The position numbers were made by a program, and so were the translations under genes. From an uncultured Clostridia bacterium (GTDB taxonomy: Bacteria > Bacillota > Clostridia > Lachnospirales > Bianqueaceae): a DNA stretch of 57,172 bases. The stretch covers positions 1 through 57,172 of the forward strand of contig CALWPV010000069.1 in assembly GCA_944383515.1 (NCBI GenBank), given 5' to 3'. The notes beneath the pieces are model-generated. The model ran no database searches, was not told where the DNA came from, and saw only the letters and a program-made list of their open reading frames with translations. This document shows, in pieces, positions 5,236 through 56,403 of the stretch (the first letter of the stretch is position 1; every line of letters begins with the position of its first letter).

Positions 5236-6091
5236 AGGAGAGAAAATTACGCTGCGGCAGCTGCTTGCGGAAGGACAAAGCGCGCTGAGCGGCGAAGACG
5301 CGCAGCTGGAGGCCTGGCTTTTATTGGAGTCTGTTTTTTCGCTGGACCGCGCTGCGTTTTGGCTGCGGTGTGACGAAGCCGCCTCGCCGGAGGGCTGCCG
5401 GCAGTATCGGCAGCGGATCGCGCGCCGGCAAGCAGGTGAACCTGTTGCCTATATACTGGAAAAATGGGAGTTTATGGGCCTTCCGTTTCGGGTAAGTTCT
5501 GCGGTGCTGATTCCGCGTCCGGATACAGAAACGCTGGTAGAAGAGGTTCTTGCCTGGGCCGGGAACCGTCCGTTACAGGTACTGGACTTATGCACGGGCA
5601 GCGGATGCATTGCGGTCAGCTTGGCAAAGTATTTGCCGCAGGCATGCGTAGACGCCGCCGATATTTCGCCGGAGGCGATAAACATAGCCGGCGGCAATGC
5701 GGCGCTTAACCAAGTAACGATTTCAGTTTATCAAGGGGATTTATGGGAAGCGGTGCCGGCGGGCCGGCAATATGACGTAATTACAGCGAATCCTCCCTAT
5801 ATTGACGAGGAAGAGATGAAGCAGCTGAGCCGGGATGTGCGAGAGTATGAACCGCGCCTGGCGCTGGACGGCGGGGCAGACGGATTAACATTCTACCGGC
5901 GGCTGGCGGCGGAATCGGGACGCTTTTTAAAGCCGGCGGGCCGGGCGTTTTGGGAAATTGGCTATCGGCAGGCGGCTGCGGTAACGGAATTGGCGCGGCA
6001 AGCGGGCCTGCGGGTGGTCGCTGTGAAAAAGGACTTAGCTGGTCACGACCGGGTGGTTATCGTAGAAAGAGGAAAGAATCATGGTAGATAA
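5225..6091 (+). CDS. prmC: Peptide chain release factor N5-glutamine methyltransferase
   Basis: PrmC (HemK) methylates the glutamine of the GGQ motif of release factors using S-adenosylmethionine. The 288-residue protein has an N-terminal helical domain and then a Rossmann methyltransferase domain with [13 protein letters not shown] (motif I, about 117-129) and the substrate-binding NPPYI motif at about residue 188. It overlaps the genes on both sides, DUF1385 upstream and prfA downstream. Placing the enzyme beside its substrate RF1 is the usual arrangement. Confidence 0.95.
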
Positions 6092-44777: not shown

Positions 44778-45275
44778 ATGCATATTGTACTTCATGAACC
44801 GGAAATTCCGCAAAATACAGGGAATATTGCCAGAACCTGTGCATGCACGGGTTCTCCCTTGCATTTAATTCAGCCGCTGGGCTTTTCTCTGGACGAGAAG
44901 CATTTAAAGCGGGCGGGGCTAGACTACTGGTCTCAATTAGAGCTATACGTTTACGAAAGTTATGAAGATTTTTTAGAGCGCCATCCGGGCATTCAGCTTT
45001 GGCTGGCTACTACGAAAGCGCCCAATGTGTACAGCCAGGTTAGCTATGGTCCCGACGATTACATTATGTTTGGTAAAGAAACCGCCGGTATACCGGAAGA
45101 GATTCTCGCCAGGCATAAAAAAGATTGTATTCGAATTCCGATGGGCGCCGGATTTCGATCTCTCAATTTATCAAACTCCGTTGCCATCGTTTTATATGAA
45201 GGGCTGCGGCAACAAAATTTTGCGGGTCTGCAAGAAACCGGACAGCTGAGAACCTGTACCTATATTGACGGGTAA
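44778..45275 (+). CDS. trmL: tRNA (cytidine/uridine-34 2'-O)-methyltransferase
   Basis: TrmL methylates the wobble ribose of tRNA-Leu. The 165-residue SPOUT protein begins MHIVLHEPEIPQNTGNIARTCA and has the trefoil-knot SAM site GKETAGIPEE and IPMGAGFRSLNLSNSVAIVLYE. It begins 4 nt after the aminotransferase stop and is followed by mutS2. Confidence 0.93.
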   Translation: MHIVLHEPEIPQNTGNIARTCACTGSPLHLIQPLGFSLDEKHLKRAGLDYWSQLELYVYESYEDFLERHPGIQLWLATTKAPNVYSQVSYGPDDYIMFGKETAGIPEEILARHKKDCIRIPMGAGFRSLNLSNSVAIVLYEGLRQQNFAGLQETGQLRTCTYIDG

Positions 45276-45312
45276 AACGCTGTTTCCGCGCGGATCCGTT
45301 ATAGGAGAAGCG

Positions 45313-47760
45313 ATGAACGAAAAAGCAAAAAAGAAACTGGAATATAATAAAGTGATTGAAAGGCTGGCAGAAAAAGCAGCTTCCCCCAGCGGAAAACAGC
45401 GCTGCCGGGAGCTAGAGCCTTCAACGAATGTACTTGAAATTACCCGCTGGCAGGAAGAAACCGACGAGGCGCTGCGGTATCTGTGGAGCAAAAGCGAGCC
45501 TTCCTTTGGCGGATTACATGACATTAGAACCAGTGTCAAGCGGACAATGGTGGGCGGCGTATTATCTATGGAAGAACTGCTGGATATTGCCGATTCACAG
45601 TACGTTGTACAAAAAATCAAAGAGTATGGAAAGCGCCAGGATACACAGGAAGTAAGGCAGGGCACCGTAGACGCTCCGCAGATAGAAGGCAGCTTTGAGC
45701 ATCTGGATCCTCTGTTTCAGGGCCTGCAGACGGTATCCGAAGTTGAAAATGAAATTCGCCGCTGCATCATCAGTGTCGACGAAATGAGTGATAACGCCAG
45801 CAGCAAGCTGCATCAGCTGCGCCGGGAAATTCATGTGCAGCAAGAGCGGGTGCGCAGCCAGCTGCAGAATATGATTCATTCCGAATCCTATCGCACCGTG
45901 CTGCAAGACCAGGTAGTGACCATGCGGGGCGGCCGTTTTTGCCTGCCCGTGAAAGCAGAGCATAAAAACAGCGTTCACGGCATGGTTCACGATCAATCCG
46001 CCAGCGGTTCCACACTTTTTATTGAACCTATGGCCGTGGTAGAAACCAACAATCGGATTACCGAGCTCATGGTCGCCGAGCAAGAAGAGGTGCGGCGCAT
46101 TTTAGCCGAGCTCAGCCACAGGGTAGCCAGCTATGAACAGCCGCTGCTGGCCAATTTTGAAATTTTAACCGAGCTGGATTTTATCTTTGCTAAAGGTAAG
46201 CTGGCAAAAGAAATGGAGGCCGTGAAGCCGCTCATTAGTGAAGAGCGGGTGATCGACCTTCCCAAGGCGCGGCATCCGCTGCTCAACCCCAAAACAGTGG
46301 TGCCCATTAGTATTCGCTTAGGAGAGGGATTTACCTCGCTCATTATTACCGGCCCCAACACCGGCGGAAAAACCGTAACGCTCAAAACGCTGGGGCTTCT
46401 TTCGCTTATGGGACAGGCCGGGCTTCATATTCCCACGGCCGATCGGCCGAAATTGACGGTGCTCGACGAGGTATTCGCGGATATTGGAGACGAACAAAGT
46501 ATTGAGCAGAGCCTGAGTACCTTCTCCTCTCACATGGTCAATATTGTCGATATTCTCGAGCAGGTAACGCCCTGGTCGCTTGTTTTACTGGACGAATTAG
46601 GAGCCGGTACGGATCCTACGGAAGGCGCCGCCTTGGCGCAGGCCATTCTCAGTGATTTGCGGCAGCGCCGCATTTTAACGGCGGCTACTACGCATTACAG
46701 CGAACTGAAGGTCTATGCCTTGTCAACGGAAGGCGTGGAGAATGCCAGCTGTGAATTTGACGTAAATACCCTGCGGCCAACCTACCGGTTGCTGATTGGG
46801 GTGCCGGGGAAGAGTAATGCGTTTGCTATATCCAGAAGGCTGGGGCTCTCGGAGGAGATTATCACGCAGGCCGGCGAGCTGCTGGCCAGTAATGATATTC
46901 AGTTTGAGGACATGATGAGCGATCTCGAGATCAGGCGCAAACAGATTGAAGAGGAGCAGGAGAAAATTCAGTCGCTGCGCGCGGAGCTATCTGCCCTGCA
47001 ACGGGAAGCCCAAACGGCCAAGGAAAAGGTGGAGGCTCAGAAAGAGCGTGTCATTCGGGCGGCCCAGGAACAGGCGTCGGAAATGCTTCGGAAGGCGAAA
47101 GAAGAGGCCGATCAAACGATTGCCCGTATCAATAAACTGATTCAACAGGGAGCGCAGGGAGGCATGGACATGAGCGCCCTGGAAAAGGAACGGGCGCATT
47201 TAAGAGAAACGCTGGATCAAATGCAGCAGAAAGCGCCGGCTTCTTCTGTGGGGCGCTCCGGGGCTATCGATGTTCGGCAGCTGATTCCTGGTGTCAAGGT
47301 TAGAATCGAGGGCTTTGATCAGGATTATAGCGTGCTGACGGTGCCGGATCATAGGGGAAATGTCACGGTACAAGCCGGCATTATGAAATTGCAGATTAAA
47401 ACCGGCGATATTGTAAAGATTCTACAGGATCCGGACGAGAAGCCAAAGAAAAAGACTAAAAAAGACAGCTCGATTTCGGCCGGCAGTTTTGGCAAGGCGC
47501 AGACAATTCATTTAGAAGTCGATTTGCGAGGCATGATGACCGACGAAGGCATTGCCGTACTTGATAAATATCTGGATGACGCGTATTTGGCCGGTATGCC
47601 ACAGGTGCGCGTAATCCATGGCAAAGGGACAGGCGCTATGAGAAGAGCGGTACAAAACTATCTTCGCCGGGCGCCGCATGTCGCATCGTACCGCCTGGGA
47701 GCACTAGGCGAAGGCGATACGGGTGTCACCATTGTTGACATGAAAAAAAGGAAATCGTAA
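45313..47760 (+). CDS. mutS2: Endonuclease MutS2
   Basis: MutS2 lacks the mismatch-recognition domain of MutS and acts on branched DNA or stalled, collided ribosomes. The 815-residue protein has the MutS core, the ATPase with GPNTGGKTVTLKTLG and LVLLDELGAGTDPTEG, a long coiled coil (about 530-640) and the C-terminal Smr nuclease domain (LDLRGMMTDEG, VIHGKGTGAMRRAV). ATG 45313 follows TAGGAG; an in-frame extension lies in trmL and has no start signal. Confidence 0.94.
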   Translation: MNEKAKKKLEYNKVIERLAEKAASPSGKQRCRELEPSTNVLEITRWQEETDEALRYLWSKSEPSFGGLHDIRTSVKRTMVGGVLSMEELLDIADSQYVVQKIKEYGKRQDTQEVRQGTVDAPQIEGSFEHLDPLFQGLQTVSEVENEIRRCIISVDEMSDNASSKLHQLRREIHVQQERVRSQLQNMIHSESYRTVLQDQVVTMRGGRFCLPVKAEHKNSVHGMVHDQSASGSTLFIEPMAVVETNNRITELMVAEQEEVRRILAELSHRVASYEQPLLANFEILTELDFIFAKGKLAKEMEAVKPLISEERVIDLPKARHPLLNPKTVVPISIRLGEGFTSLIITGPNTGGKTVTLKTLGLLSLMGQAGLHIPTADRPKLTVLDEVFADIGDEQSIEQSLSTFSSHMVNIVDILEQVTPWSLVLLDELGAGTDPTEGAALAQAILSDLRQRRILTAATTHYSELKVYALSTEGVENASCEFDVNTLRPTYRLLIGVPGKSNAFAISRRLGLSEEIITQAGELLASNDIQFEDMMSDLEIRRKQIEEEQEKIQSLRAELSALQREAQTAKEKVEAQKERVIRAAQEQASEMLRKAKEEADQTIARINKLIQQGAQGGMDMSALEKERAHLRETLDQMQQKAPASSVGRSGAIDVRQLIPGVKVRIEGFDQDYSVLTVPDHRGNVTVQAGIMKLQIKTGDIVKILQDPDEKPKKKTKKDSSISAGSFGKAQTIHLEVDLRGMMTDEGIAVLDKYLDDAYLAGMPQVRVIHGKGTGAMRRAVQNYLRRAPHVASYRLGALGEGDTGVTIVDMKKRKS

Positions 47761-47778: not shown

Positions 47779-48471
47779 ATGAATGCGAAACAGAGAATTT
47801 TAATTGCAGATGACGACGCGAACATTGCAGAGCTGATCGCGTTATACCTGACGAAGGAAGGGTATGAAACCAGAAAAGCCGGCGACGGCCGGGAAGCGCT
47901 GCAATTAGTGCAGACATTCAATCCGGATCTCATCATACTCGATATCATGATGCCGGAAATGGATGGATACGAGGTATGCCGAGAGGTTCGTAAAGAAAGT
48001 ACCACGCCGATTATCATGCTAACGGCCAAGGGAGAAACCTTCGACAAAGTCTTAGGACTGGAGCTGGGCGCAGACGACTATATGGTTAAACCGTTTGATA
48101 CCAAAGAATTGGTGGCCAGAGTTAAGGCGGTGCTGCGCCGGATGGAAAATAAAGAAACAAACATGAAGAAAATCTCTTTTGACAATCTGACGATTAACCT
48201 TTCTAACTACTCGGTAACCTATCAAAACGAAAGTGTGGAAATGCCGCCGAAGGAGCTTGAGCTGCTCTTCTTTTTGGCATCGCACCCGAATCAGGTGTTT
48301 ACCAGAGAGCAGCTGCTCAATCAGATTTGGGGCTATGAGTACTATGGCGATACCCGCACCGTGGATGTACACATTAAGCGGATTCGCGAGAAGCTGGGAA
48401 GCGACGAGGAACATGCTCAGTGGAGCATTAAGACAGTTTGGGGAGTAGGCTATAAGTTTGAAGTCAAATGA
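47779..48471 (+). CDS. OmpR/PhoB family response regulator
   Basis: The 230-residue protein has a receiver domain (residues 1-120) with ADDD acidic pocket, phosphoacceptor Asp55 in LIILDIMMPEMDG, and Lys in MVKPFD. A winged-helix DNA-binding domain (about 130-228) follows, with PPKELELLFFLASHPNQVFTR and TRTVDVHIKRIREKLG. It precedes and overlaps its kinase gene. It probably controls envelope-stress genes, including the HtrA-like gene behind the kinase. Confidence 0.95.
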   Translation: MNAKQRILIADDDANIAELIALYLTKEGYETRKAGDGREALQLVQTFNPDLIILDIMMPEMDGYEVCREVRKESTTPIIMLTAKGETFDKVLGLELGADDYMVKPFDTKELVARVKAVLRRMENKETNMKKISFDNLTINLSNYSVTYQNESVEMPPKELELLFFLASHPNQVFTREQLLNQIWGYEYYGDTRTVDVHIKRIREKLGSDEEHAQWSIKTVWGVGYKFEVK

Positions 48472-49999
48472 AAAATGGCAGCAGCCTAAGAAATCGTTTT
48501 TGTCGCTGCGGGTCAAAATGCTGGGAAGCTATATTTTGCTTCTCGTGATTATTATGGTTGTGGTCGCGTATGTGCTTCCGAATATTTTTAACGACTTTTT
48601 CATAACCGAAAAGCGAAATAATCTGGAGAAAACCAGAGAAATTATTAGCGAAGTACTTTCGGAGCGCAATTTCCGTACCGACCCGGAAGCGCAGAGCATT
48701 CTGGAAACGGCGGCTAGTGCTGCAGAAGTCAATATCTGGATTTGTACGCAGGTAGATCAATCGACCGTGCGTATTTATCCGTTTGGCGCTACAAGCAATC
48801 AGGTAGAAGATCTGGCGTTTAACTCACTCACTACCAGTGAGAAAGATCTGATTCAGCAGGTAGTAGAGGGAAGTGATATCGGATATGCCCGCAACGCGTT
48901 TCCCACCGCGTTTTTTGGACAGACGATATCGCTGGGCTACCAGCAGGAATATCAGGATTCTGTGAGTCTGGTTTTGGAAAAAAAAGTAGAAGAGGCCTCG
49001 GTAGTCAAACAGGGAGCTGTTTTTATTCATATTGCGATGGATGATATTTCAATGACAACGCAAAGCATTCTGAATATGGTTTTAATTACGCTTCTTCTGG
49101 TTTCGCTGGCAGCGACGCTCATGACGTTTTTAATGACCAATAATATTATTATTCCCATTGCGCAAATGAAAAAGGCGGCGGAGGCAATTACCAAAGGAGA
49201 CTTCTCACAAGAGGTACATATTACGTCTAACGATGAGGTGGGAGAGCTAGCCAGCTCGTTTAATGTCATGGCGAAAGAGCTGCAATCGGTGGATACGCTG
49301 CAAAGCGATTTTATTGCCAATATTTCTCACGATTTTCGCTCGCCGCTCACCTCGATTAAGGGGTATGTGGAGGCTATTTTAGACGGAACCATTCCGCAGG
49401 AGCAGTATCCTAAATATCTCTCTATTGTACTGGACGAGGCCAACAGGCTAACCAAAATGACCAATAATATTTTGGACCTAACCAAAATGGAAAATGGTCA
49501 GATTGAGCTGCACCGCGTGAATTTCGATATTAACGAAATGATTATTAAGCTGGCGCTCAGCCTGGAGCAGCGGTTTGAAGAAAAGAAGATTCATGTGGAT
49601 TTTCAGTTTATTCAGGAAAAGCTCTATGTCAATGCCGATCTGGACTTGATTCAGCGGGTGGTATATAACCTGCTGGATAATGCGCTCAAATTTACAGAAG
49701 AGGGCGATTCTATTACAGTGGAAACGAGCATTGTAGCGCGAAAAGCTTATATAGTAGTTTCGGACACGGGCATGGGCATTAGTGAAGAGGTGCTGCCGCA
49801 TATTTTTGAACGTTTCCATAAGGGGGATAAATCCCGCGGAAAGAATAAAATGGGCGCCGGTTTGGGGCTGGCGATTGTCAAGCAGATTATGCTCACGCAT
49901 CATGAAGATATTACGGTGCGCAGCCAAGTGGGAGAAGGGACAAAATTTGCCTTTAGTCTGCCGCTAGCGTATCGATACAACTTGGTAGAAAAGAAATAA
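48458..49999 (+). CDS. Sensor histidine kinase
   Basis: The 513-residue kinase has two membrane helices (about 21-46 and 200-223) flanking an extracytoplasmic sensor domain of about 150 residues. HAMP (about 224-277), HisKA with His291 in FIANISHDFRSPLTSIKGY and HATPase_c with NLLDNALKF, DTGMGI, FHKGDKSRG and GAGLGLAI follow. It starts from a TTG that overlaps the regulator gene by 14 bases, with GGGGAG upstream; an internal ATG at 48518 is an alternative but would leave out the N-terminal cytoplasmic tail. Confidence 0.93.
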   Translation: MKSNEKWQQPKKSFLSLRVKMLGSYILLLVIIMVVVAYVLPNIFNDFFITEKRNNLEKTREIISEVLSERNFRTDPEAQSILETAASAAEVNIWICTQVDQSTVRIYPFGATSNQVEDLAFNSLTTSEKDLIQQVVEGSDIGYARNAFPTAFFGQTISLGYQQEYQDSVSLVLEKKVEEASVVKQGAVFIHIAMDDISMTTQSILNMVLITLLLVSLAATLMTFLMTNNIIIPIAQMKKAAEAITKGDFSQEVHITSNDEVGELASSFNVMAKELQSVDTLQSDFIANISHDFRSPLTSIKGYVEAILDGTIPQEQYPKYLSIVLDEANRLTKMTNNILDLTKMENGQIELHRVNFDINEMIIKLALSLEQRFEEKKIHVDFQFIQEKLYVNADLDLIQRVVYNLLDNALKFTEEGDSITVETSIVARKAYIVVSDTGMGISEEVLPHIFERFHKGDKSRGKNKMGAGLGLAIVKQIMLTHHEDITVRSQVGEGTKFAFSLPLAYRYNLVEKK

Positions 50000-50015: not shown

Positions 50016-51395
50016 ATGGACGAACAAAACATAAACCAGAATGGGGAGCGGCACTCAGAACCGCAGCCCTCGGCGGCGCCGCAGTGGCAGCCGGAGGAAA
50101 AGCAGGATAATGGATACCAAGGCACCTATGGAACAGGGCCGTATACGGAAGGGTGTGTTCCTCCTTTTGAGAGGTATACGCCCCCTTTTCAGGGGCCTCC
50201 GCCTAAAAGGCACGGCTGGCAGGTGGCCATTGCCTGTGTATGCTGCCTTGCTTTTTGCGTGGCAGTACTGGGAGGCGTTCGCCTGAGCGCCTGGCTTTTA
50301 GACCGGCCGTCCGGCGGCGACTTTTCCATTCAGCAGGCTTCGGCAGACGAAGACGCTATGGGATATTTAGACTCGGTTCAGAATTCTTCTTATGAATCGG
50401 TATCGGATATTGCGGAAGATGTAGGGCAGTCCGTGGTAACAATTGTTATCACGCTTTCTTACGGAAGCACGCTCGACGCGTATACGACGCAGTTTTTGGG
50501 CTCCGGCGTTATTATTGGAGAGGATGCCGATAAAATTTTTATTGCCACCAATTACGAAGTCATTGCGTCGGCGTCGGATGTGAGTATCATTGCCGGCACC
50601 GACGAATCGACGGCAATACAGGCCTATTATCAGGGGTCCGATGTCGACACGAATCTTGCGGTTATTTTTATCCGCAAGGCGGATGTACCGGAGGCTGTAC
50701 GCTCGCAGATGAAAATCGCAACGCTCGGCGATTCGGCCGCTATGCGGCTGGGGGACCTGGCCATTGCGATTGGCAGCCCGGTGGATAAGAGCTTTGGCAA
50801 TTCTGTCACAGTGGGAGCTATTAGCGGACTGGAGCGCAGCGTTTCGTTTATTGACGAGGAGACGCAGACAACCCAGACTATGACGCTGATGCAAACGGAT
50901 GCGGCAATCAATCCGGGTAACTATGGCGGCGCACTGGTGAATGGCCGCGGCGAGGTAATCGGTATCAACTGTTCCAAGATTACGTCTACCGAGGTGGAAG
51001 GCATGGGCTTTGCCATTCCGTCGAATATTGCGGTTCCAGTGTTGGAAGATCTGGTAAATTATGGAAAGGTAAGCCGGCCGTATATTGGAATAACCGGCGG
51101 CAACGCGGCCAGCTATCAGGATTTTGCGGCGCAGTATCAGATTGTATCCGGCGTTATTGTTGTTACTGTGGTGCAGCAAGGCCCGGCCGCGTTAGCAGGG
51201 CTGCAGCCGTATGACATTATTATTACTTTTGACGGAAAACCGGTAGAGGATTTTGACGATTTATCGGCAGCGATTGATGAAGCGGGAGTTGGTAAAACGG
51301 TAGAAGTGGAGGTGCTTCGCGGCTATCAGCAGGGCGAGGCCGAAACGACAATGCTTACGCTTACCATTCAGGAAAAAGATTCTACCGGACGTTAA
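50016..51395 (+). CDS. HtrA/DegP-like trypsin-fold PDZ protein lacking all catalytic residues
   Basis: The 459-residue protein has a Pro/Gln-rich cytoplasmic N-terminus (1-66), one membrane helix (about 68-90), an S1C trypsin-like domain (about 125-345) and a PDZ domain (about 355-445). In active HtrA the triad is His, Asp and Ser. Here the aligned positions are Glu181 (TNYEVI), Asn213 (DVDTNLAV) and Tyr303 (NPGNYGGAL), so it cannot be a serine protease of this type. The fold itself appears intact. ATG 50016 follows GGAGA; an ATG at 50004 has no such site. It lies 16 nt after the kinase gene, as with CssRS-HtrA, and may work as a chaperone or scaffold. Confidence 0.92.
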   Translation: MDEQNINQNGERHSEPQPSAAPQWQPEEKQDNGYQGTYGTGPYTEGCVPPFERYTPPFQGPPPKRHGWQVAIACVCCLAFCVAVLGGVRLSAWLLDRPSGGDFSIQQASADEDAMGYLDSVQNSSYESVSDIAEDVGQSVVTIVITLSYGSTLDAYTTQFLGSGVIIGEDADKIFIATNYEVIASASDVSIIAGTDESTAIQAYYQGSDVDTNLAVIFIRKADVPEAVRSQMKIATLGDSAAMRLGDLAIAIGSPVDKSFGNSVTVGAISGLERSVSFIDEETQTTQTMTLMQTDAAINPGNYGGALVNGRGEVIGINCSKITSTEVEGMGFAIPSNIAVPVLEDLVNYGKVSRPYIGITGGNAASYQDFAAQYQIVSGVIVVTVVQQGPAALAGLQPYDIIITFDGKPVEDFDDLSAAIDEAGVGKTVEVEVLRGYQQGEAETTMLTLTIQEKDSTGR

Positions 51396-51432: not shown

Positions 51433-52395
51433 ATGGAGTTTATCGAATCCTTCAAAGAAGGGCAGCGCGTGATTGGGCACTATTTGTGCAAGGATAAACA
51501 GATGATGACGGCCAGAACCGGAAAAAATTATTTAAAGCTGGTGCTTGAGGACAAAACCGGTAGCATTACAGCCATGGTTTGGGAGCTGGGGCCGCAAATC
51601 GGACCGTTTGATAAGGGCGAGATCATTAAGATCGATGGTACAACGTCGATATACCAAGGAGCAATGCAGCTCAGCGTAACCAGGCTTCGGCGGAGCGAGG
51701 CGCATGAGTATGCGGTGGGCGATTACTACCGAACCAGTCGCGAGAGCAGCCAGGTGCTTTATGAGCGGCTTCTTGGCTATATGCAGCAGATTCGGGATAT
51801 GGGGCTGCGTCACCTGGTAGAAAGCTTTTATGTAGACGATCAGGCGCTGATCGAGCGTTTACTCCGGCACCCGGCTGCCAAAAGCGTGCACCATAATTAT
51901 ATTGGCGGGTTGTTGGAGCATACGGTATCGGTAACCGGGCTGGCTCTGTATATGGCGGAGCAGTATCAGCCGGCCAATCCCGATTTAATTATTGCGGGAG
52001 CGCTGCTGCACGATATCGGTAAGCTGCGAGAAATCAAGCCGCTTCCTCTTAATGAATACAGCGACGAAGGACAGCTGTTAGGGCATATTGCGATTGGATA
52101 TATGATGGTGCATGAGCGGGGCGTTCAGATTCCCGACCTTTCTCCTCAGCTTTTAATGCAGCTGGAACATATGATTTTAGCGCATCATGGCGAGCTAGAG
52201 TTTGGCTCGCCCAAAGTTCCCTCCACCATTGACGCCATGATCTTATATTTGGCAGATTTAAGCGATTCCAAATTAAAACAGGTAGAGGATGCTATCGATA
52301 CCGACCATGGCGAGGGACACTGGACAGCGTATCACCGCATTTTAGGCCGAACATTTTATAAACCGGATGGGGAGAGTCATGAAGCAGCAGAGTAA
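51433..52395 (+). CDS. yhaM: YhaM family 3'-5' exoribonuclease (OB fold and HD domain)
   Basis: The 320-residue protein has an N-terminal OB fold (about 1-90; KNYLKLVLEDKTGSITAMVW) and an HD phosphohydrolase domain (about 150-290) with LLEHTVSV, LLHDIGKLREI and ILAHHG. YhaM degrades RNA or single-stranded DNA from the 3' end with manganese. GGGGAAG precedes ATG. The gene overlaps rlmD by 17 bases. Confidence 0.9.
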   Translation: MEFIESFKEGQRVIGHYLCKDKQMMTARTGKNYLKLVLEDKTGSITAMVWELGPQIGPFDKGEIIKIDGTTSIYQGAMQLSVTRLRRSEAHEYAVGDYYRTSRESSQVLYERLLGYMQQIRDMGLRHLVESFYVDDQALIERLLRHPAAKSVHHNYIGGLLEHTVSVTGLALYMAEQYQPANPDLIIAGALLHDIGKLREIKPLPLNEYSDEGQLLGHIAIGYMMVHERGVQIPDLSPQLLMQLEHMILAHHGELEFGSPKVPSTIDAMILYLADLSDSKLKQVEDAIDTDHGEGHWTAYHRILGRTFYKPDGESHEAAE

Positions 52396-53791
52396 GGCGC
52401 CGGTAAGCAAAAACCAGGAGCTAGAGCTGGTTATTGAAGGCTGGGGCAGCCGGGGCGAAGGCATAGGGCGTTACTGCCAGTTCGCCATTTTTGTACCAGG
52501 GGCGCTTCCGGGAGAAACCGTGCGCATTCGTATTGTTAAAGTAGAAAAACATTTGGCGTATGGCAAGGTGTTGCAGGTTCTGATTCCCAGCGCCGATCGA
52601 GCCTCAGAGGAGGAAGCGGGCGCTTGCCCTCTGTATGGCCGCTGCGGGGGCTGCCAGCTGAGTCATATGCGCTATGAAGCGCAGCTTGCGTTTAAACGCG
52701 ATAAAGTAAAGCAGGCCTTAGTTCGCATTGGGTCTATGTCGCCGGATCAGGTGGAGGCGGTTCTGGCGCCTCAAACACATGGTATGCCCCAGGGCGACTG
52801 GCATTATTATCGTAATAAAGCCCAGTTTCCACTACAAATGGTAGAAGGTCGTCCGAGAGCGGGTTTTTATGCGCCGCGCAGTCACCGGCTGCTGCCGGTC
52901 ACGGATTGCCTGCTACAGTCGAAGGCCGCTGCCCGCGTGATACAGGCCATTGAAGCGTTTCTGGAGCAGCATGCGGTACCCATTTATCAAGAAGAAACGC
53001 ATAAAGGCGTGCTGCGTCATGTGCTGATCCGCGACGGACGCGCTACCGGCGAGATTTCTGTATGTTTGGTCATTAACAGCGCGGCGCTGCCGCAAAAGGA
53101 CGCTTGGATCGCTCTTATGAAGCAGCTAGGAGTCGACAGCTTCTCAATTAACATCAATCGGCAGCGTGGCAACGTGATTTTGGGCACTCAAACAGAGGTG
53201 ATATGGGGCTGCTCCACGATTACCGACCGTCTGGGCGGTGTTCAATTTCATATTGCGCCCGCGGCGTTTTATCAGGTGAATCCGGTACAAACCGAGCGTT
53301 TATACCAAAAAGCTCTTGCAATGGCGCAGCTGAGCGGAGACGAGGTGGTTTGGGACGCGTATTGCGGCATTGGCACCATTAGTCTGTTTTTGGCACAGAA
53401 GGCCAAACAGGTATACGGCGTCGAGATTGTTCCCGATGCCATTGAAAATGCCCGTGAAAATGCGCGTCTGAATCAAATGGATAACGTTTGCTTTTATGTG
53501 GGCGAAGCAGAAACCGTGATTCCTAGGCTTTATCATGAAGAAGGAATTAAGGCCGATGTTATGGTGCTGGACCCGCCGCGATCCGGATGCGAAGAGCGTC
53601 TATTACGTACGCTTTTAGACATGGCGCCTGGGCGCATTGTGTATGTTTCCTGTGATCCGGCTACGTTGGCGCGGGACTGTAAGCGGTTATGTGAGTCTCA
53701 GTATCGTGTTGAGAAGGTAGAGACATTTGACCTTTTTCCGAACACGTATCATGTGGAGACGGTTGTCTTGCTTTCCCTCAAAAATACATGA
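52379..53791 (+). CDS. rlmD: 23S rRNA (uracil-C5)-methyltransferase, RlmD/RumA type
   Basis: The 470-residue enzyme has a TRAM domain (ELELVIEGWGSRGEGIGR, about 15-75) and an Fe-S cluster site CPLYGRCGGC with a later Cys (TDCLL). A methyltransferase domain follows, with VWDAYCGIGTISLFLA, the DPPRSGCE motif and the nucleophile Cys in VYVSCDPATLARD. It methylates U1939 or a nearby uracil in 23S rRNA. ATG 52379 follows GGGGAG; ATG 52367 lacks a site. There may be RlmCD-like dual specificity, as in Gram-positives. It ends the conserved region, and a decayed IS lies next. Confidence 0.92.
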   Translation: MKQQSKAPVSKNQELELVIEGWGSRGEGIGRYCQFAIFVPGALPGETVRIRIVKVEKHLAYGKVLQVLIPSADRASEEEAGACPLYGRCGGCQLSHMRYEAQLAFKRDKVKQALVRIGSMSPDQVEAVLAPQTHGMPQGDWHYYRNKAQFPLQMVEGRPRAGFYAPRSHRLLPVTDCLLQSKAAARVIQAIEAFLEQHAVPIYQEETHKGVLRHVLIRDGRATGEISVCLVINSAALPQKDAWIALMKQLGVDSFSININRQRGNVILGTQTEVIWGCSTITDRLGGVQFHIAPAAFYQVNPVQTERLYQKALAMAQLSGDEVVWDAYCGIGTISLFLAQKAKQVYGVEIVPDAIENARENARLNQMDNVCFYVGEAETVIPRLYHEEGIKADVMVLDPPRSGCEERLLRTLLDMAPGRIVYVSCDPATLARDCKRLCESQYRVEKVETFDLFPNTYHVETVVLLSLKNT

Positions 53792-55116: not shown

Positions 55117-56403
55117 ATGCCAAAGATGGATGCGCAATATAGCTACAATTTTATCGACCTCTTCGCGGGTGCCGGCGGGCTTTCAGAAGGGTTCCTTCAG
55201 GCTGGCTTCAAGCCTGTCGCTCATGTCGAAATGAATGAATTTGCGGCTAAAACGCTTGAAACGAGAAGTGCTTATTATTACTTGAAGGGCACTGACAATC
55301 TCGGTTTATATAAAAAGTATGTGTCCGGGAAAATCTCCCGAAATGATTTTATGAAGCAAATTCCAGCTTCTATGACGAAAACCATCATCAATGAAACGAT
55401 GTCGGATGAGACGCTCCCGGCAATTTTCAAGACTATTGATGGGATAATGAAAATACGAGGTATCACTAAGATCGATGTCATTGTAGGAGGACCACCCTGT
55501 CAGGCGTATTCCTTGGTTGGGAGAGCGCAAAGTAGTCACATGGAAGTGCCGATGGCCGAAGACCCTCGAAACTACTTATACAAACTGTATGCGCGTTTCT
55601 TAAAACGCTATCAGCCTCGTATGTTTGTGTTTGAGAATGTTACGGGTATTGAATCGGCCAATGGCGGAGCTACATGGAAGAACATTCAAAAATACTTAAA
55701 ACGAGTGGGATATGAAATCGAATGCCGTGAGCAGAATGCTCATACCTTTGGTGTACTCCAAAACAGACGTCGAATGATTATCGTCGGATGGTTAAAGAAA
55801 AGCGGTCTGAAATATCCCGATTTTCTTGAAGTTAAAACGGACGCTAAAGTAAATGATCTCTTTGCTGATTTGCCAAAGCTACATCCCGGAGAGAGTTCCG
55901 ATAAGTACACAAAAACAAAAGCCACAAGCTATGTTGTGGAATCAGGAATACGGACGAAGGATGACGTGCTGACTCACCATAACTGCCGACCGAATATAGA
56001 TCGGGATATCAAGATTTACAGGCGGGCTGTTGAATTGTGGAATGATGGTCATAAACGCCTAAATTACAATGATCTCCCAGACGAATTAAAAACGCACAAG
56101 AACAGACATTCATTTACGGACAGGTTCAAAGTTGTCGAGGGCGATGAATCGTGCTGCCATACTATTCTGGCACACCTTTCAAAGGATGGTCATTATTTCA
56201 TTCATCCTGACATCGAACAGAACAGATCAATTACCGTCCGTGAGGCGGCAAGAATACAGTCCTTCCCGGACAGCTATTTCTTTGAGGGATCACGCGCATC
56301 ACAATTCATCCAGATTGGAAATGCTGTGCCTCCAATGATGGCAAGAGGGATAGCGATGGGTATTTTTGAGCAACTGTATAAAGGAGATTCAGATGGAAGG
56401 TAA
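55117..56403 (+). CDS. DNA (cytosine-5) methyltransferase
   Basis: The 428-residue C5-cytosine methyltransferase has motif I DLFAGAGGLSEGF, motif IV VIVGGPPCQAYS with catalytic Cys128, motif VI FVFENVTGI, motif VIII QNRRRMIIVG and motif X IQIGNAVPP. There is an unusually long insert between motifs I and IV (about 50-115). The target-recognition region is at about 235-350. It overlaps an SNF2-like helicase gene by 11 bases. A C5 methyltransferase coupled to such a helicase suggests a DISARM-like or related defence cluster rather than a simple type II system, but no nuclease gene is visible before the window ends. The ribosome binding site CGAGGA is weak. Confidence 0.93.
   Translation: MPKMDAQYSYNFIDLFAGAGGLSEGFLQAGFKPVAHVEMNEFAAKTLETRSAYYYLKGTDNLGLYKKYVSGKISRNDFMKQIPASMTKTIINETMSDETLPAIFKTIDGIMKIRGITKIDVIVGGPPCQAYSLVGRAQSSHMEVPMAEDPRNYLYKLYARFLKRYQPRMFVFENVTGIESANGGATWKNIQKYLKRVGYEIECREQNAHTFGVLQNRRRMIIVGWLKKSGLKYPDFLEVKTDAKVNDLFADLPKLHPGESSDKYTKTKATSYVVESGIRTKDDVLTHHNCRPNIDRDIKIYRRAVELWNDGHKRLNYNDLPDELKTHKNRHSFTDRFKVVEGDESCCHTILAHLSKDGHYFIHPDIEQNRSITVREAARIQSFPDSYFFEGSRASQFIQIGNAVPPMMARGIAMGIFEQLYKGDSDGR

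Follow-up and report, generated by a model that had tools for sequence, protein, structure and literature searches.

How much of the role of HtrA proteins, which are described as protease-chaperones, depends on cutting is an open question. The window analysed here, a stretch of 57,172 nucleotides, raises it in a concrete form: does an HtrA-like gene in which all three catalytic residues are replaced encode an enzyme in decay, or a protein kept for a task that needs no proteolysis?

A membrane-anchored HtrA protein with a replaced triad

The gene belongs to a tight plus-strand block, mutS2, response regulator, histidine kinase, htrA, yhaM and rlmD, with the following features.

45265–47760, + strand: mutS2, with which the conserved block opens
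47779–48471, + strand: OmpR-type response regulator
48458–49999, + strand: sensor histidine kinase (HAMP, HisKA, HATPase) with the phospho-acceptor motif NISHDFRSP present
50016–51395, + strand: htrA-like pseudoprotease gene, 459 amino acids, one open frame with no internal stops
50556–50558, + strand: codon 181, GAA (Glu), in place of the catalytic His; the sister species G001 has CAT
50652–50654, + strand: codon 213, AAT (Asn), in place of the catalytic Asp; G001 has GAT
50922–50924, + strand: codon 303, TAT (Tyr), in place of the catalytic Ser, within GN-Y-GG; G001 has TCT
51433–52395, + strand: yhaM-like gene (OB-fold and HD domain), which we take to be yhaM from its sequence and from knowledge of the family; the most constant neighbour of htrA across the order
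52367–53791, + strand: rlmD-like 23S rRNA methyltransferase, named from its sequence; end of the conserved block

The single open frame and a GGAG ribosome-binding site 6 nt 5' of the ATG rule out an error in the reading frame. The product consists of a cytoplasmic Pro-rich N-terminus, a transmembrane helix (residues 67–93), a trypsin-like domain (about 124–350) and one PDZ domain (about 355–450). Pfam recognizes Trypsin_2 (2.3e-20) and PDZ_2 (5.8e-15), the NCBIfam Do/HtrA model TIGR02037 matches at 2.1e-66, and an AlphaFold2 model (mean pLDDT 81, above 90 across most of the protease and PDZ domains) aligns structurally to AlgW, Deg1 and DegS with Z scores of 31–33, DegS and AlgW being the best matches. 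Together with PDB sequence comparison, these data place the protein in the HtrA/Do (S1C) fold family, a trypsin-like domain followed by a PDZ domain, and agree with the initial annotation, which had described both domains as complete.

The same annotation had read the triad as Glu181, Asn213 and Tyr303. Indeed, phmmer alignments to solved HtrAs put E181, N213 and Y303 in the catalytic His, Asp and Ser columns, an alignment with over 30 homologues gives the same placement, and the oxyanion-loop NPGN and GG are retained around Tyr303. Only two His are found in the protein, at residues 13 and 66, and each precedes the protease domain; in the G001 orthologue, the catalytic His is the sole His of the corresponding part. 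Since there is no His after residue 66, a rescued triad is impossible, and an intact triad elsewhere in the domain, which was looked for, is ruled out. Judging from the missing His, the protein is almost certainly unable to cut. The product of 50016–51395 is a membrane-anchored HtrA/Do (S1C) protein with its triad replaced: it lacks the His-Asp-Ser of an active HtrA/Do serine endopeptidase and has the make-up of an HtrA pseudoprotease, with fold, frame and domain order kept, the triad lost and active relatives in existence. Among these relatives are two further HtrAs on other contigs of the same genome, both with intact His-Asp-Ser and only 33–34% identical to it, which answers the suggestion that an active htrA be sought elsewhere in the genome.

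The position in the operon is also kept, as had been claimed from the window alone: the block from mutS2 to rlmD is common across the window's family (5 genera, 19 genomes). The proposed parallel with CssRS-HtrA fared less well. The regulator scores best against WalR/YycF and the kinase against WalK, both below the curated cut-off, and no CssRS model is among the NCBIfam matches listed for the two proteins; the link is weak, and the comparison would be an analogy only. A pattern scan for promoters and terminators directly upstream of htrA gave no informative site. Outside the conserved block, positions 55117–56403 (+ strand) hold a C5-cytosine methyltransferase gene (GPPCQAYS motif), possibly part of a restriction-modification neighbourhood.

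Selection or decay in the window's family

The sister species G001, source of the only same-genus orthologue (67% identical), has a normal triad, and His-Asp-Ser is found in seven more orthologues of the family, three in genus g5 (G013, G015, G016) and four in g2 (G002, G006, G010, G014). Six orthologues from g3/g4 (L012, L013, L014, L017, L021, L026) have kept His and Asp, with the Ser changed to Thr, as is likewise the case in MamO (PMC4794232), and with the oxyanion-loop NPG lost. In three g5 genomes (G005, G009 and G018; loci L059, L060 and L061), the kinase adjoins yhaM, htrA is absent and the rest of the block is intact, which is a clean gene loss. One genome, G017, is incomplete at the locus and stands outside these triad counts. 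In a tree of the family built without the triad columns, the window protein pairs with that of G001 (support 97) and groups with the His-Asp-Ser orthologues, away from the other inactive clades, while the g3/g4 proteins form a separate clade (100). Because the tree separates the two, the inactivations in g3/g4 and in the window species are independent.

It had been suggested that related genomes be searched for the same Glu/Asn/Tyr set. This set proved private to one genome and one assembly: the codon motif N-P-G-N-Y-G-G occurs in no other genome of the 392 searched within the order, and with the looser DNA pattern N-x-G-N-Y-G-G none of the 19 other loci examined in these genomes is an HtrA, such matches being chance-like, at a rate that resembles the reversed-pattern control. 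The search thus rejects the presence of the same Tyr substitution in relatives.

The strongest alternative to a retained function is recent neutral decay, in which catalysis became dispensable because of the two other HtrAs, the triad was lost by drift and there has been too little time for the remainder of the gene to rot. It is favoured by the two intact paralogues, by the absence of the gene from three family members, which shows that it can be dispensable, and by the normal triad of the sister species, named by the initial annotation itself as a sign of recent decay. However, decay should strike conserved positions broadly. The eight active-type orthologues of the family share 85 invariant positions in the protease domain; the window protein differs at exactly three of them, and these are the triad (hypergeometric P = 1.0e-5). 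When 15 further active-type sequences from the order are included, 34 positions remain invariant, and the window protein departs from them at 3, once more those of the triad (P = 1.7e-4). The His position (GAA versus CAT) requires at least two base changes, and frame, start, ribosome-binding site and synteny are all retained. In addition, long-lived inactive copies exist at the same locus across a whole family, the Lachnospiraceae.

Substitution rates point the same way. In a codon model, the branch leading to the window protein has an omega of 0.06 versus a background of 0.04, with no difference between the two and with omega = 1 rejected (2ΔlnL = 13.9), although the size of omega is rough, synonymous sites being near saturation. 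The window protein carries 19 unique changes against 14 in G001, so that its rate is not raised, and neither the codon model nor the relative-rate comparison detected an acceleration that would point to decay or adaptation. The protease domain is under purifying selection over the branch as a whole, an average in which the period after inactivation is neither separable nor datable. Since only the triad changed among conserved positions, omega (~0.06) lies below 1 and the rate is not raised, simple decay is a poor fit despite the normal-triad sister species, and we consider it unlikely. The claim that the gene was selected for a non-proteolytic role is, in turn, plausible from the triad-only change, the low omega and the recurrence at the locus, while the normal triad of the sister species continues to weigh against it. 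The still intact oxyanion and substrate-side residues suggest that the inactivation is recent relative to that in the Lachnospiraceae.

Triad-less copies of the locus in Lachnospiraceae

A triad-less HtrA in genome G023, of family f6, sits in the same neighbourhood as the window gene. Because another HtrA of G023 shows 100% identity over 463 residues with an HtrA of Butyrivibrio hungatei DSM 14810, we take f6 to be Lachnospiraceae, a family of the same order; given this identity, a cultured carrier strain is probably available. The catalytic triad is missing from 47 of 47 f6 locus copies (htrA beside yhaM and/or mutS2; L255–L303), the first 30 of which were picked by similarity to an inactive query, while the rest, which include lower-scoring matches and loci found through yhaM, gave the same result; beyond these 47, the gene is missing in two genomes and one genome is ambiguous. 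Together with the deletions in G005, G009 and G018, the two missing genes indicate that the function is dispensable in some lineages.

None of the 47 copies has His at the His position, and the other two positions are mostly Gly, with 33 different combinations. Two alignments of these copies disagree on some of the old-triad letters, because the loops there now align poorly, and either way His-Asp-Ser is found in no copy. The proteins nevertheless still match the Trypsin_2 and PDZ models, with serine protease HtrA/Do remaining the best-matching model, and they retain the structural glycines and the PDZ domain. Protease-domain identity is 33% among the inactive f6 proteins versus 56% among active-type proteins; for the PDZ domain, the values are 35% versus 38%. 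The inactive proteins fall into a single clade (100), with the active-type paralogues of f6 close by (97). Locus copies in families f2, f21, f22 and f24 have His-Asp-Ser, as do 167 of the HtrA-like proteins surveyed for contrast (the query and 177 ORFs). Synteny with the kinase, which had been proposed for checking, holds across the window's family, but not in general: in f6, the htrA-yhaM pair is usually divergent from mutS2, regulator and kinase, so the constant neighbours of htrA are yhaM and mutS2, not the kinase.

Because the f6 clade, the g3/g4 clade and the window species are separate, the HtrA of this locus was, as far as the sequences tell, inactivated independently at least three times. 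Recurrent loss of catalysis at one locus lends indirect support to a useful non-proteolytic role, and stronger support than the initial annotation had. We tentatively propose, at slightly less than even odds, that the htrA beside mutS2/yhaM was turned on at least three occasions (early in the Lachnospiraceae, in g3/g4 and in the window species) into a membrane PDZ protein that does not cut, hence that the locus has a task free of cutting, such as to hold or sense secreted proteins at the envelope, a task that does not need proteolysis or would be harmed by it. The locus thereby provides a natural series for studying such a job; at one end, in the window genome, only the triad is lost, and at the other, in dozens of Lachnospiraceae genera, the active site is eroded throughout. 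Many of the Lachnospiraceae proteins recognized by HtrA models probably lack protease activity, a point that bears on how many proteases are counted in gut bacteria.

A possible role without cutting and its precedents

The reading that we favour, with a probability of roughly 0.6, is that the window protein is a pseudoprotease of fairly young age, that the locus HtrA was inactivated independently at least three times, this being one of them, and that the protein has been retained as a chaperone or sensor that binds substrates with its PDZ domain. The HtrA would have been inherited in the mutS2-regulator-kinase-htrA-yhaM-rlmD block, and the entire triad lost on the lineage to the window species, with the trypsin-like fold, the oxyanion loop, the substrate-side loops, the membrane anchor and the PDZ domain held by purifying selection. 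Most likely, the protein is exposed on the outside of the membrane. Presumably co-expressed with the kinase, it would use its PDZ domain and body to bind the ends of misfolded or secreted proteins, leave them uncut and serve either as a holdase/chaperone or as a sensor that responds to a ligand; cutting would fall to the two other HtrAs, whose triads are intact. Counting against this reading, Tyr303 might obstruct the substrate groove.

Alternatively, the dead protein could join or compete with the active HtrAs and thereby tune their activity. HtrAs are trimers, and active-type copies coexist with the inactive one both in the window genome and in the Lachnospiraceae checked. Moreover, MamO promotes MamE-dependent proteolysis without catalysis of its own (PMC4794232). 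However, the low identity of the paralogues makes mixed trimers uncertain, and the inactive copy descends from the gene at the locus, not from a duplicate newly made in the genus, which leaves this kind of regulation improbable. That the three codons are not those of the living organism, through assembly, strain mixture or sequence artefact, is very improbable: they are known from only one assembly (134 contigs), with no independent record found, and a change of exactly three catalytic codons and nothing else is unusually tidy, but they lie at three separate sites, require at least four base changes and leave the frame undisturbed, in a genome that is 98% complete and 1% contaminated and has one copy of the gene.

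A retained chaperone or sensor has precedents. A protease-dead HtrA (S260A) provides a chaperone-type benefit for protein production in B. subtilis (PMC10715036), and chaperone-only point mutants of HtrA suffice for stress survival in H. pylori (PMC6892219). The working mode proposed here resembles that of these proteins, in which a dead HtrA aids protein production or survival; they were, however, engineered in an active enzyme, whereas the window protein is a natural replacement of the full triad. MamO and inactive MamEs are known HtrA pseudoproteases of magnetotactic bacteria (PMC4794232), and share with the present case a degenerate triad in an HtrA trypsin-like domain, repeated independent inactivation and active homologues alongside; the non-proteolytic role is MamO's and is proposed here. 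By contrast, phylum, locus and domain layout differ, the C-terminal transporter domain being MamO's, and MamO binds metal by a surface di-His. With no His in its ectodomain, the window protein is not a metal-binding pseudoprotease of the MamO type. The Gram-positive HtrAs (B. subtilis HtrA/YkdA, HtrB/YvtA and HtrC/YyxA; PMC12826053) have the same N-terminal transmembrane anchor, one protease domain and one PDZ domain, with a two-component system adjoining in some loci, but cut with His-Asp-Ser. DegS and AlgW likewise combine a transmembrane anchor, a protease domain and one PDZ domain, but signal by cutting RseA/MucA, of which the window protein is predicted to be incapable. We found no account of Lachnospiraceae or clostridial HtrA pseudoproteases in the open literature, and within the literature searched this recurrent, family-wide case appears to be undescribed.

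Two further HtrAs, in L105 (Clostridiales bacterium Ehx436_bin4) and at positions 5323–6720 of L224, have only the catalytic His changed, to Tyr, with no two-component system adjoining in the available DNA. Family f11 has tandem pairs of HtrA genes (L031; G028:C9:3842-6015).
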